In this document: in pieces, positions 16,234-19,693 of the stretch | How positions within the stretch are numbered: position 1 is the first letter of the stretch | Layout of the letters: each line of letters opens with the position of its first letter | Source: Flavobacterium aestivum | Lineage (GTDB): Bacteria; Bacteroidota; Bacteroidia; Flavobacteriales; Flavobacteriaceae | Assembly: GCF_026870175.2 (NCBI RefSeq) | Contig: NZ_CP113977.2 | Span: forward strand, 992,001 to 1,056,000 | Length of the DNA stretch: 64,000 nt | Reading direction: 5' to 3' | Translations under genes and position numbers: made by a program | Notes under the pieces: generated by a model | The model's database searches: none | What the model saw: only the letters and a program-made list of their open reading frames with translations | Told to the model about the DNA's origin: nothing

Positions 16234-18132
16234 ATGAGCGACGCTTTAAAACATGAATGTGGTATAGCTTTAGTTAGACTTCTTAAGCCTCTTGAATTCT
16301 ATAAGGAAAAATACGGAACTGCTTTCTATGGCATACAAAAAATGTATTTGCTTATGGAAAAACAGCACAACCGTGGTCAAGATGGTGCTGGTTTTGCAAG
16401 TATTAAATTGGATGTCGAACCTGGGGAAAGATACATAAGTCGTGTACGTTCCAATCATGCTCAACCCATCCAAGATGTTTTTAAACAAATTAATGAAAGA
16501 ATAAACGAAGAGATGGTGGCACATCCGGAATATGCGGATGATATGGCACAACTAAAATCAAATATTCCTTATGTAGGAGAATTGTTTTTAGGTCACGTTC
16601 GTTACGGAACTTTTGGTAAAAATAGTATTGAAAGTGTACACCCATTTTTACGTCAGAGTAACTGGATGCACCGTAACTTAATTTTGGCAGGTAATTTTAA
16701 CATGACCAATGTAAAAGAGCTTTTTCAAAATTTAGTTGAATTAGGACAACATCCTAAAGAGATGGCAGATACGGTTACAGTAATGGAAAAAATTGGTCAT
16801 TTTCTAGACAAAGAAGTGATGCAATTGTATCAAGATTGTAAAGCGGAAGGATTGTCTAAAAGAGAAGCTTCACCTGTAATTGCAGAACGATTAGATGTTG
16901 CTAAAATATTGGCGCGTTCTTCCAAAAATCTTGACGGAGGATATGCTATGGCCGGTCTTTTAGGTCATGGAGATGCTTTTGTTTTTAGAGATCCGGCAGG
17001 AATCCGCCCAGCTTATTTTTATCAAGATGATGAGATTGTGGTGGTGGCTTCAGAGCGACCAGTAATACAAACTGTTTTCAATGTTCCTTTTGATAAAGTG
17101 CAAGAGATTGATCCGGGAAGTGCCTTAATTATTAAGAAAAACGGAAAGGTTACCATGAATCAAATCTTGGAACCAACGGTTAAGAAAGCTTGTTCTTTTG
17201 AACGCATTTATTTTTCTAGAGGGAGTGATGCAGAAATCTATCAAGAAAGAAAAGACTTAGGGAAACTTATTTTGCCAGCAGTATTGGAGTCAATAGATAA
17301 CGATACAGACAATACGGTTTTCTCTTATATTCCTAATACAGCCGAAACTTCTTTTTACGGATTGGTTGAGGCTGCACAAGATTTCTTGAATCAAAGAAAG
17401 AAAAATTTCATTCTTGAAAATAAAGATCTTTTGAGTGATGATACTTTAGAGAAATTACTTTCCGTAAAAATTAGAACCGAAAAAGTAGCTATAAAAGATG
17501 CTAAATTAAGAACCTTTATTACTGAAGATAGCAGTAGAGATGATTTAGTGGCTCACGTTTATGATGTTACATATGGTGTAATTAAACCAACAGATAATCT
17601 TGTTATTATAGATGATAGTATTGTAAGGGGAACAACTCTTAAAATGAGTATTATCAAAATGATGGATCGTTTGAATCCAAAGAGAATTGTAATTGTTTCT
17701 TCTGCGCCTCAAATTCGTTTTCCGGATTGCTATGGAATTGATATGGCAAAATTGGAAGGATTGGTTGCCTTTAGAGCTGCATTGGAATTATTGAAAGAAA
17801 GAAACTTATATCACATCGTTGATGAAGTGTATGCTAAATGTAAAGCACAAGAAAATTTTAAAGATAGCGAAGTTGTAAATTATGTGACTGCTATATATGC
17901 TCCTTTTACAGCTCAAGAAATATCAGATAAAATTGCTGAAATGTTAAGCTCTTCAGATATCAATGCCGAAGTAAAAATTATTTTTCAAACTGTTGAAGAT
18001 TTACATATTGCATGTCCAAAGAATCTTGGAGATTGGTATTTTACAGGAGATTACCCAACACCAGGAGGTAATCGTGTAGTAAATCGAGCATTTATGAATT
18101 TCTACGAAGGTAAAGATGCTAGAGCATATTAA
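16234..18132 (+). CDS. purF: Amidophosphoribosyltransferase, long form
   Basis: First committed step of purine synthesis: PRPP plus glutamine gives phosphoribosylamine. The class II glutaminase nucleophile is Cys9 in HECGIALVRLL, implying removal of an eight-residue propeptide. FLGHVRYGTFG and LAGNFNMTN continue the glutaminase domain. The PRPP loop VIIDDSIVRGTTLKMS lies near residues 455-470. At 632 aa it is ~125 aa longer than E. coli PurF, with extra sequence between and after the domains. A second, standard PurF may exist elsewhere in the genome, so the precise role is inferred. A weak hairpin (18144-18172) follows. Confidence 0.85.
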   Translation: MSDALKHECGIALVRLLKPLEFYKEKYGTAFYGIQKMYLLMEKQHNRGQDGAGFASIKLDVEPGERYISRVRSNHAQPIQDVFKQINERINEEMVAHPEYADDMAQLKSNIPYVGELFLGHVRYGTFGKNSIESVHPFLRQSNWMHRNLILAGNFNMTNVKELFQNLVELGQHPKEMADTVTVMEKIGHFLDKEVMQLYQDCKAEGLSKREASPVIAERLDVAKILARSSKNLDGGYAMAGLLGHGDAFVFRDPAGIRPAYFYQDDEIVVVASERPVIQTVFNVPFDKVQEIDPGSALIIKKNGKVTMNQILEPTVKKACSFERIYFSRGSDAEIYQERKDLGKLILPAVLESIDNDTDNTVFSYIPNTAETSFYGLVEAAQDFLNQRKKNFILENKDLLSDDTLEKLLSVKIRTEKVAIKDAKLRTFITEDSSRDDLVAHVYDVTYGVIKPTDNLVIIDDSIVRGTTLKMSIIKMMDRLNPKRIVIVSSAPQIRFPDCYGIDMAKLEGLVAFRAALELLKERNLYHIVDEVYAKCKAQENFKDSEVVNYVTAIYAPFTAQEISDKIAEMLSSSDINAEVKIIFQTVEDLHIACPKNLGDWYFTGDYPTPGGNRVVNRAFMNFYEGKDARAY

Positions 18133-18143
18133 TAGTAAAACTT

Positions 18144-18180
18144 CGATAAACGGTTTTTCTGGTACTTTATCGGATTTATT
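18144..18180 (+). terminator. Probable terminator of the amidophosphoribosyltransferase gene
   Basis: CGATAAA (18144-18150) pairs with TTTATCG (18166-18172) across a 15-base loop; a T-rich tract follows. Confidence 0.45.
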
Positions 18181-18213
18181 TTTATAGTCTTGAATGACAA
18201 AGTATATTTGACC

Positions 18214-18286
18214 ACCATAATTTTAGTAGGTTAAGTTTATGGTAGATTTGGGGCAAAAAGGGTGGAAGTGAAATTCCACCTTTTTT
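18214..18286 (+). ncRNA. Putative small RNA, tandem copy 1
   Basis: A ~73-nt transcription unit with no ORF. A TATATTTG -7 box (18203-18210) ends three bases before a 5' hairpin: ACCATAA (18214-18220) pairs with TTATGGT (18237-18243) around a 16-base loop. Next comes an invariant linker, AGATTTGGGGCAAAAAG (18244-18260). An intrinsic terminator closes the unit: GGTGGAA (18261-18267), loop GTGAAA, TTCCACC (18274-18280), six T. Two more copies follow. A match to the Flavo-1 RNA family is possible but was not tested. Confidence 0.75.
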
Positions 18287-18386
18287 ATTGGGAAAAAGTT
18301 AAGTAATTTAATAAAGGATTTCTTTTCTTGTATAGGGAATTTATCTATATAATGCTGATAATTAAACGATTACCCATTAAACGAAA

Positions 18387-18413
18387 TTATAGGACATTCA
18401 TCGAGTATATTTT
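18387..18413 (+). repeat. Conserved upstream box of small-RNA copy 2
   Basis: A 27-base block containing CATTCATCGAGTATATTTT; it recurs at 18628-18654 with two A-to-G changes. It lies ~21 bases before the -7 box of copy 2 and is absent upstream of copy 1. It could bind an activator or replace a -33 box. Confidence 0.5.
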
Positions 18414-18444
18414 TAATAAATCTTTTATCGATGTACATTTGACT

Positions 18445-18515
18445 ACCATGATTTTAGTAGGTTAAGTTTATGGTAGATTTGGGGCAAAAAGGGTGGAAGA
18501 AATTCCACCTTTTTT
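18445..18515 (+). ncRNA. Putative small RNA, tandem copy 2
   Basis: Same architecture as copy 1, ~71 nt. The -7 box TACATTTG is at 18434-18441. The 5' hairpin is ACCATGA (18445-18451) with TTATGGT (18468-18474); the single base change gives a G-U pair, so pairing is kept. Loop and linker are identical to copy 1. The terminator stem (18492-18498 with 18503-18509) is identical, but its loop is shortened to GAAA; six T follow. Confidence 0.75.
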
Positions 18516-18627
18516 ATTGGGCTTAAATCAAATAATTAGAGCAAGATTTTTATAAAATATTTTAGTTTTCTTGAATATTTTTTCAAAAAATGATATTGAA
18601 AATCAATATTATAGTAAATCAACGACT

Positions 18628-18654
18628 TTATAGGGCATTCGTCGAGTATATTTT
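18628..18654 (+). repeat. Conserved upstream box of small-RNA copy 3
   Basis: The counterpart of 18387-18413, containing CATTCGTCGAGTATATTTT. Beyond it both copies carry a TATCGA(T/A)G stretch just before the -7 box. Confidence 0.5.
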
Positions 18655-18685
18655 AAAAATCTGCGCTATCGAAGTACATTTACAT

Positions 18686-18757
18686 ACCATAATTTTAGTA
18701 GGTTAAGTTTATGGTAGATTTGGGGCAAAAAGGGTGGAAGTAAATTCCACCTTTTTT
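18686..18757 (+). ncRNA. Putative small RNA, tandem copy 3
   Basis: Same architecture, ~72 nt. The -7 box is the slightly degenerate TACATTTA (18675-18682), again three bases before the 5' hairpin (ACCATAA 18686-18692, TTATGGT 18709-18715). Hairpin loop and linker are identical to the other copies. The terminator stem is conserved (18733-18739 with 18745-18751) with loop GTAAA, then six T. Confidence 0.72.
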
Positions 18758-18807
18758 ATTGGAATAAAGTCTCAAAATGTGAGAATAGAAAATAAATTAT
18801 AAAAAAA

Positions 18808-18841
18808 ATAGACGAACCAACTTTTTAGTCAATTCGTCTAT
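18808..18841 (-). terminator. Intrinsic terminator of sodA
   Basis: ATAGACGAA (18808-18816) and TTCGTCTAT (18833-18841) form a perfect 9-bp stem. Read on the minus strand it is followed by eight U (complement of the A-run at 18801-18808). Confidence 0.85.
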
Positions 18842-18863
18842 CATTTAAGAGTCTATTATTTTT

Positions 18864-19472
18864 CTATTTCTCTAAAGCAAAACGTCTAGCTACTTCAGTC
18901 CAGTTAATTACGTTGAAGAAAGCTTCAATATAATCTGGTCTTCTATTTTGATAATGCAAGTAGTAAGCATGCTCCCAAACATCCATTCCTAAAATTGGAG
19001 TTCCTCCACAACCTACTTCTGGCATCAATGGATTGTCTTGATTAGGAGTTCCGCAAACGTCAAGTTTACCGCCTTTTTGTACACATAACCAAGCCCATCC
19101 AGAACCAAATTGAGTAGCACCAGCTTTAGAAAATTTTGCCTTAAATTCGTCAAAAGAACCAAAGGAACTTTCAATAGCGGCTAGCAATTCACCAGTTGGT
19201 AATCCACCACCGTTTGGAGCCATAACAGTCCAAAATAAGTTGTGATTGTAAAAACCACCACCATTATTACGTACTGCAGCATTAGTTTTATCTAAATTGA
19301 TTAAGATATTTTCAATTGTTTTCCCTTCCAAATCAGTTCCAGCAATAGCTGCATTCAAATTTGTTGTGTAAGCATTGTGGTGCTTTGAATGGTGAATTTC
19401 CATTGTACGTGCATCAATATGAGGTTCTAATGCGTCATACGCATAAGGTAATTGTGGTAATTCAAAAGCCAT
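18864..19472 (-). CDS. sodA: Superoxide dismutase, Fe/Mn family
   Basis: Converts superoxide to oxygen and hydrogen peroxide. Metal ligands are visible: His in EIHHSKHH (residue 27), His in FYNHNLFW, and Asp/His in [12 protein letters not shown] Gly-rich NNGGGFYNH segment together with a Gln in TPNQDNPL favours the Mn-type second sphere, though metal preference cannot be fixed from sequence. Length 202 aa is normal. No signal peptide is seen, so it is cytoplasmic. A possible -7 box is the complement of 19508-19515 (TAATTTTG). Confidence 0.95.
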
Positions 19473-19608: not shown

Positions 19609-19693
19609 GGAGCCATTTCCCGCTATCTGCTATATCTTTATGTTTTTAAAGAAAAAACATAAAGGATGCCGCTTCTATCGGGGCTATGGCATT
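19609..19693. repeat. Structured intergenic element with long nested hairpin
   Basis: A central 12-bp stem, CTTTATGTTTTT (19636-19647) with its complement ending at 19664, is enclosed by outer pairs GCCAT (19612-19616)/ATGGC (19686-19690) and CCCG/CGGG just inside. No ORF. The sequence resembles an intergenic element I associate with Flavobacterium genomes, but this is from memory and unverified. It lies between the divergent sodA and addA-like genes. Confidence 0.5.

Follow-up and report, generated by a model that had tools for sequence, protein, structure and literature searches.

The Qrr and the GacA-driven Rsm systems each comprise several near-identical small RNAs (sRNAs), every one transcribed from its own response-regulator-dependent promoter. 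The Qrr RNAs use sigma-54 and Hfq, and the Rsm RNAs sponge CsrA by means of many GGA motifs. Among Bacteroidota, the FopS sRNAs of Bacteroides are short, occur in multiple copies, share a fixed seed and are partners of the RRM-1 protein RbpB, which binds them, as described in the accessible text of PMC11697453.

Post-transcriptional control in flavobacteria has been little explored. According to the accessible part of a study of F. psychrophilum (PMC9723704), Shine-Dalgarno sequences are reported absent in these bacteria, Rfp11, 13, 15 and 18 are named as conserved in other species, and Rfp18 influences the mRNAs of two metalloproteases, which depend on it for their normal levels. Candidate sRNAs of F. 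columnare without Rfam matches are listed in the supplement of another study, as its accessible text indicates (PMC5395568). In the literature on Flavobacterium and Flavobacteriaceae sRNAs, we found no description of a family-wide, tandem and operator-controlled sRNA, and a literature text search with four core strings returned no paper.

The locus described here lies in the window, by which we mean the whole stretch of 64,000 nucleotides that was analyzed. Its sRNAs are like the FopS RNAs in being short, multicopy RNAs of Bacteroidota with a fixed seed, which is putative here, and they differ from them in their arrangement: the 14 FopS members in B. thetaiotaomicron are not one tandem array, and the group is described in Bacteroidaceae (accessible text of PMC11697453).

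Three predicted sRNA genes between purF and sodA

Three sRNA genes of 71–73 nt lie between purF and sodA at positions 18203–18757 of the window. From the sequence and the computed folds, the predicted RNAs extend on the forward strand over 18214..18286 (copy 1, 73 nt), 18445..18515 (copy 2, 71 nt) and 18686..18757 (copy 3, 72 nt), which bears out, in place and in size, the tandem triplet of ~72-nt sRNA genes claimed in the original prediction. The upstream neighbor, at 16234..18132 on the forward strand, is an open reading frame with Pfam matches to glutamine amidotransferase domains only, which we take to be purF by recognition. The convergent downstream neighbor, at 18864..19472 on the reverse strand, is an open reading frame for a sodA-type Fe/Mn superoxide dismutase (Pfam Sod_Fe_N and Sod_Fe_C).

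Each copy is made up of a TAnnTTT(G/A) box, 3 bases, a hairpin, a 17-base single-stranded linker and an intrinsic terminator. The −7 boxes, all on the forward strand, read TATATTTG (18203..18210), TACATTTG (18434..18441) and TACATTTA (18675..18682), the last one ending in A and not in G; as claimed before, every box ends 3 bases before the hairpin, here before ACCAT. In F. psychrophilum, TAnnTTTG is the sigma-A box, as given in the accessible part of PMC9723704. For copy 1 the 5′ hairpin covers 18214–18243 and the linker 18244–18260, and the terminator extends up to a T-tract at 18281–18286. The 5′ hairpin is laid out as ACCAT(A/G)A...TTTATGGT with a 16-base loop, TTTTAGTAGGTTAAGT; this loop and the linker, AGATTTGGGGCAAAAAG, are identical across the three copies, as had been stated. 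The terminator reads GGGTGGAA...TTCCACC followed by the T-tract, and the earlier description of variable loops on fixed stems fits it, the loops of copies 1–3 being GTGAAA, GAAA and GTAAA and the stems invariant. No base thus differs among the copies from the loop through to the terminator stem; what varies is the terminator loop, one stem base and the spacers. With a promoter box and a terminator of its own for each copy and several paralogs, these elements would qualify, judged from sequence, as the multicopy stand-alone sRNA genes that they had been taken for.

All three copies are predicted to fold strongly, with none of 200 shuffles as stable as the respective copy (z −4.63, −4.57 and −5.63), and both the linker and the loop are unpaired in the predicted fold ensemble. 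A 41-base core has 3 exact occurrences in the 4.58 Mb genome and no others at up to 3 mismatches, and the reversed 41-base control has 0 occurrences in the same genome. Considering the core, the fold and the control results, chance is therefore far from explaining the three copies. The exchange of A-U for G-U in the 5′ stem of copy 2, previously read as a sign of selection on RNA structure, is present, but it is one-sided and falls in a stem that hardly varies, and by itself it argues little for RNA structure.

Against Rfam, the three copies stay below the gathering score of every family. A permissive scan of 18130–18865 turned up 18 matches, all of them weak (E from 0.00024 to 3.7), of varied kinds and well below gathering scores, which were treated as chance. 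Membership in FopS (RF04319) was rejected at 19.8 bits and E 1.9, reached by copy 3 only, versus a gathering score of 56. Flavo-1 (RF01705), named in the original prediction, is likewise a flavobacterial sRNA and has one copy in this window, but its model is unmatched by the three copies, both at the 42-bit gathering score and in the E-value scan of 18130–18865, and the copies are not Flavo-1. The only Rfam match in the window is that Flavo-1 RNA, at 19612–19689 on the minus strand (74.2 bits); it is transcribed towards sodA, whose start codon follows about 140 bases downstream, and could be part of a sodA leader.

The sRNA might also be Rfp18 of F. psychrophilum under another guise, in which case only the spread, the multiplicity and the operator would be new. 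Both are structured Flavobacterium sRNAs conserved genus-wide, and Rfp18 is described as strongly folded and as expressed also in F. columnare (accessible part of PMC9723704). Rfp18 is said there to pair by a ‘third stem-loop’, though, as opposed to the two main hairpins in the computed folds of each copy here; purF and sodA are absent from the main text of that report, in which ‘tandem’ appears twice, for other things, and its accessible part gives neither a copy number nor a location for Rfp18. We consider this identity unlikely. The sRNA may be among those seen in the experiments of PMC9723704 or PMC5395568, so far as the accessible text of the two reports goes.

Conservation across Flavobacteriaceae

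The purF–sodA interval, for which a comparison among relatives had been proposed, keeps its organization in them. The set compared consists, among the matches listed, of 144 loci with 284 copies (28 derived from BLAST, 115 from an exact pattern, and the window), mostly from Flavobacterium, with at least 5 pairs of the 144 loci being the same genome from two sources. At the loci listed, purF precedes the copies in the same orientation in 137 of 144, sodA is found downstream in 123 of 144 and both as flanking genes in 121 of 144; some of the others end at the edge of the stretch. For other genera, both neighbors are present at 37 of the 43 loci listed, purF only at 2 and neither at 4 (L167, L173, L202 and L205), and a comparison of the neighbors of these 4 loci revealed none in common. 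The number of copies varies, with 1 copy in 48 of the 144 loci listed, 2 in 64, 3 in 21, 4 in 10 and 5 in 1, and the spacing between copies falls within 175–244 bases in 110 of 140 cases at the loci listed. At L018, L199 and L200, some adjacent copies and their spacers are nearly identical and others in the same array have diverged; the near-identical neighbors suggest recent tandem duplication.

The copies could be regarded as ordinary purF terminators that have been neutrally duplicated. The purF stop and the first −7 box are only 70 bases apart, and purF mRNA could end at the first terminator as well. The promoter box is kept in the copies, however, as the operator mostly is (see below), conservation of letters is highest in the linker rather than in the terminator, and copies exist at the four places without purF. 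This explanation is very improbable.

A covariance model of the sRNA, built from 36 copies, finds the family in 243 of the 299 genomes searched within the same taxonomic family. These genomes represent 196 of 236 genera and have between 1 and 7 matches each; the E-values of the model are rough, and 3 of the 243 matches are weaker than E 1e-4 (G348, G431 and G436). In a draw from the phylum, 26 of 296 genomes match the model, every one of them from the same family, as do 17 of 148 genomes in a draw from the order. The draws overlap, and outside the family they gave 0 matches in 266 and 0 in 127 genomes, respectively, where the call of in or out of the family relies on listings ordered from near to far kin, with 4 same-family misses in each draw; from these listings it follows that there are zero matches outside the family. 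The identification of the family as Flavobacteriaceae rests on named relatives, mostly Flavobacterium.

Within the genus, BLAST matched the core in 169 of 199 genomes at E 0.01. The model was then applied to genomes with a weak or absent match, namely 20 of the 30 without a BLAST match and 6 with a weak one, and 8 of these 26 matched. The 6 genomes with E above 1e-4 among the 169 failed this retest, 3 having no model match and 3 a bare terminator. Four of the 8 matches (G087, G055, G024 and G033) turned out to be diverged members next to purF, and the other 4 are bare terminators. A credible copy is accordingly present in about 167 of 199 genus genomes, including the 4 diverged ones found among the 20 no-match genomes that were retested.

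The four diverged genomes form an outlying Flavobacterium group with the sRNA at the same place, a changed hairpin and the linker TTTTTGGGGGCAAAAA. In this clade most loop and stem letters have changed, the 5′ stem being written with other letters, and the hairpin still folds. Another group of genera has a linker longer by 1 base, with the C missing in many copies (TAAGATTTGGGGAAAAA). UUUGGG in the linker is thus the most durable string seen across the sRNA family. It should be mentioned that an exact 36-base pattern is behind most genus loci, which inflates counts of letter invariance, and that the covariance model searches are fairer in this respect. At L199, L200, L201 and L208, the copy nearest sodA reads TTTGGGACG in the linker instead of TTTGGGG(C), as if one paralog had specialised.

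The 5′ stem contains an ATG, and a short peptide could conceivably be translated from it: in copies 1 and 3 the ATG opens ten codons before a stop (MVDLGQKGWK). Among genus copies the frame from this ATG ranges from 8 to at least 32 codons, one extra base follows the ATG in L199, L200, L201, L208 and L215, and ACG replaces ATG in the diverged clade. With the frame variable in length, shifted in one group and without its ATG in one clade, conserved coding was rejected, and we hold it to be extremely unlikely.

The claim of selection on RNA structure was examined in two model-fitted alignments of 42 and 55 distinct rows. Both alignments contain, for all 7 of the 7 model pairs of the terminator, some sequences in which the two sides have changed. 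For the whole structure, cells with both-side changes number 72 and 59 against shuffled means of 22.3 and 12.3, in alignments whose fitting to the structure favors structure. In the 5′ stem there are no both-side changes in the 42- and 55-row alignments, and one each at two pairs in a separate, initial alignment; two of its nine model pairs are often open, in 28 and 41 rows of the 42-row alignment and in 25 and 49 rows of the 55-row one. Because it hardly varies, the outer 5′ stem is beyond a covariation test. In relatives, structure conservation is therefore carried mainly by the terminator, and the earlier claim stands for that part; for the 5′ stem the alignments lend it hardly any support. 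Single predicted folds of 297 distinct copies show at least 7 terminator pairs in all 297, at least 6 of 7 linker positions unpaired in 288 and, in 286, pairing of the ATGG arm of the 5′ stem. Of 38 selected copies, alignment A2 left out 2, one from L065 and one, with an N, from L081.

We are almost certain that these copies represent an sRNA family. It looks like a large and widespread family of regulatory RNA that would, from the genomes compared, occupy the same place in most flavobacterial genomes sampled. About four fifths of the genera sampled have this structured RNA at one conserved locus, where its copy number varies and an operator is shared. The family deserves an Rfam entry.

A putative operator and candidate regulators

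Upstream of each promoter box lies a direct repeat, putatively an operator. On the forward strand the three repeats are at 18146..18179 (half-sites 20 bp apart, at 18146 and 18166), 18377..18410 (half-sites at 18377 and 18397) and 18618..18651 (half-sites at 18618 and 18638). Relatives have the same element, and a strict pattern scan of the genome itself finds the pattern only at the three sRNA promoters. When the boxes of the genus are aligned, TT at −57/−56 and at −37/−36 stands out, followed by ATC and a variable base, and similar upstream positions relative to the −7 box stand out in other genera. Both half-sites with a period of 20 are found in most distinct upstream regions, 214 of 263 in the genus and 114 of 145 in other genera, against maxima of 17 and 11, respectively, in 100 shuffles; the regions and copies are related by descent and the shuffles keep base composition only, and these counts are not to be read as probabilities. 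The second half-site abuts the −33 TTTG, and its distance to the −7 box downstream is 36–38 bp in 248 of 263 genus regions and 130 of 145 regions from other genera. We consider it highly probable, on these sequence grounds, that the repeat is an operator bound by a regulator. Two findings are new here relative to the original prediction: the direct repeat ahead of the promoters and the spread of the sRNA across the family.

The repeat looks like a response-regulator site. LytTR sites have a period of 21, and the period here is one base shorter, 20; a direct repeat two helical turns apart would suit a LytTR regulator. The AlgR core consensus is CCGTTCGTC, as given in the accessible part of PMC4064291. 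At the second half-site in the genus, this core fits with a mean of 5.25 of 9 positions, whereas other offsets average 2.02 and reach 3.46 at most, and the fit is at least 7 of 9 in 82 of 263 regions. In other genera the fit is weaker at the second half-site (mean 3.8 of 9), and at the first half-site it is not above controls, 3.13 compared to 3.51 at the best control offset.

A search of 199 family genomes with the family operator pattern found 19 places in 18 genomes, 9 of them before the sRNA core and 10 not. At 4 of these 10 sRNA-less places (L297, L301, L303 and L306), the second half-site is followed by TAnnTT at a distance of exactly 37 bp, compared to an expectation of about 0.1 such places given a TAnnTT density of 0.0105. 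No clear gene follows in the operator direction at L297 and L301. At L303, the same 20-bp direct repeat lies 37 bp before a TACATTTG box that precedes an OmpA-family gene (608–1447), and this gene is possibly in the same regulon. At L306, the repeat lies 37 bp before a TAACTTTC box ahead of a gene (745–1383) for a response regulator with REC and LuxR-type HTH domains, which adjoins NAD synthase, with gldB not far away; the regulator scores 129.7 bits against the UvrY/SirA/GacA model, below the cut-off of 280. If it is autoregulated, this NarL/GacA-type regulator is a second candidate for the activator. With this regulator taken into account, we regard a LytTR-type activator as a tentative candidate, and a NarL/GacA-type activator as a candidate to which we give a somewhat smaller chance still.

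Targets, partners and a possible mode of action

Complements of the linker were searched as a 14-mer with up to 1 mismatch in 61 genomes. There are 253 places, sRNA genes included, versus 85 for the reversed control. Among the places listed, 20 stretches were inspected, 4 from the genome itself, 14 for one recurrent variant and 2 for another. Five of the 20 lie inside one coding sequence, which we recognize as that of enolase, and 3 lie shortly before the start codons of different genes, overlapping a TAnnTTTG box (L262, L266 and L277); no recurrent target before a start codon was found in the 20 chosen stretches at this 14-mer threshold. The exact 12-base loop complement has 92 places in 61 genus genomes, most of them sRNA genes, versus 141 for the reversed control. 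About a dozen of the 92 are outside sRNA genes, and the control string differs in stop-codon content, so the rarity need not reflect avoidance. As the linker complements gave no recurrent target in the chosen stretches and few exact loop complements lie outside sRNA genes, any pairing is short. Pairing of the sRNA with the 5′ regions of Flavo-1, sodA, purF and recB is not clearly above shuffles, with 22 of 300, 193 of 200, 64 of 200 and 146 of 200 shuffles, respectively, pairing at least as well.

For a protein partner, Pfam gives no Hfq match in this genome. It does find one RRM_1 protein (85.4 bits; L292, G000:C1:438912-439121, minus strand), which is a candidate sRNA partner.

Based on these findings, we propose that a single trans-acting sRNA, stand-alone and non-coding, is encoded here by three paralogous genes. 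An activator, most likely a two-component response regulator, would bind the repeat and turn on all copies together, and the tandem copies would provide a higher dosage. The single-stranded linker GAUUUGGGGCAAAA, held between the hairpin and the terminator, would pair with short C-rich stretches of several mRNAs and thereby change their translation or stability, and it would do so without Hfq, perhaps with the RRM protein of the genome. We give this reading as a whole, a co-regulated, regulator-activated, multicopy trans-acting sRNA that works through its linker, a probability of about 0.5. Short base pairing through the linker, taken alone, is favored slightly over its negation.

The RNA could instead be a decoy, in which the hairpin and the G-rich linker titrate an RNA-binding protein such as the RRM_1 protein, the copy number sets the amount and no mRNA is paired. 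Stem, loop and linker are all near-invariant, beyond what a pairing seed needs (an invariance partly inflated by the exact-pattern scan), and such fixed letters also fit a protein-binding RNA; the lack of long mRNA complements of linker or loop among the matches, and a genome with an RRM_1 protein in which Hfq was not found, point the same way. There is, however, a single linker motif per RNA, while CsrB-type sponges carry many motifs, and the changed loop and stem letters of the diverged clade also speak against a decoy. With one GGGG linker apparent in each RNA, a sponge of the CsrB/RsmZ type was rejected. A decoy in the more general sense is a minority possibility that we take seriously.

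A wider proposal, which we put forward with less than even confidence, is this: an old, tandemly amplified sRNA may constitute a core regulatory hub of Flavobacteriaceae, with a dedicated two-component response regulator of LytTR or NarL/GacA type, no Hfq, an RRM partner and a single-stranded UUUGGG module. The conserved RNA itself raises the questions of which signal and regulator control it and how targets are found where Hfq was not found and Shine-Dalgarno sequences are reported absent. Like the Qrr and the GacA-driven Rsm RNAs, the sRNAs of the window are several near-identical copies, each with its own promoter, whose dependence on a response regulator is putative here. They differ from both in their sigma-A type promoter, in the Hfq not found and in having one linker motif. 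If the proposal is true, flavobacteria would have in this hub a counterpart to the Qrr, Rsm or FopS systems that arose independently of them.
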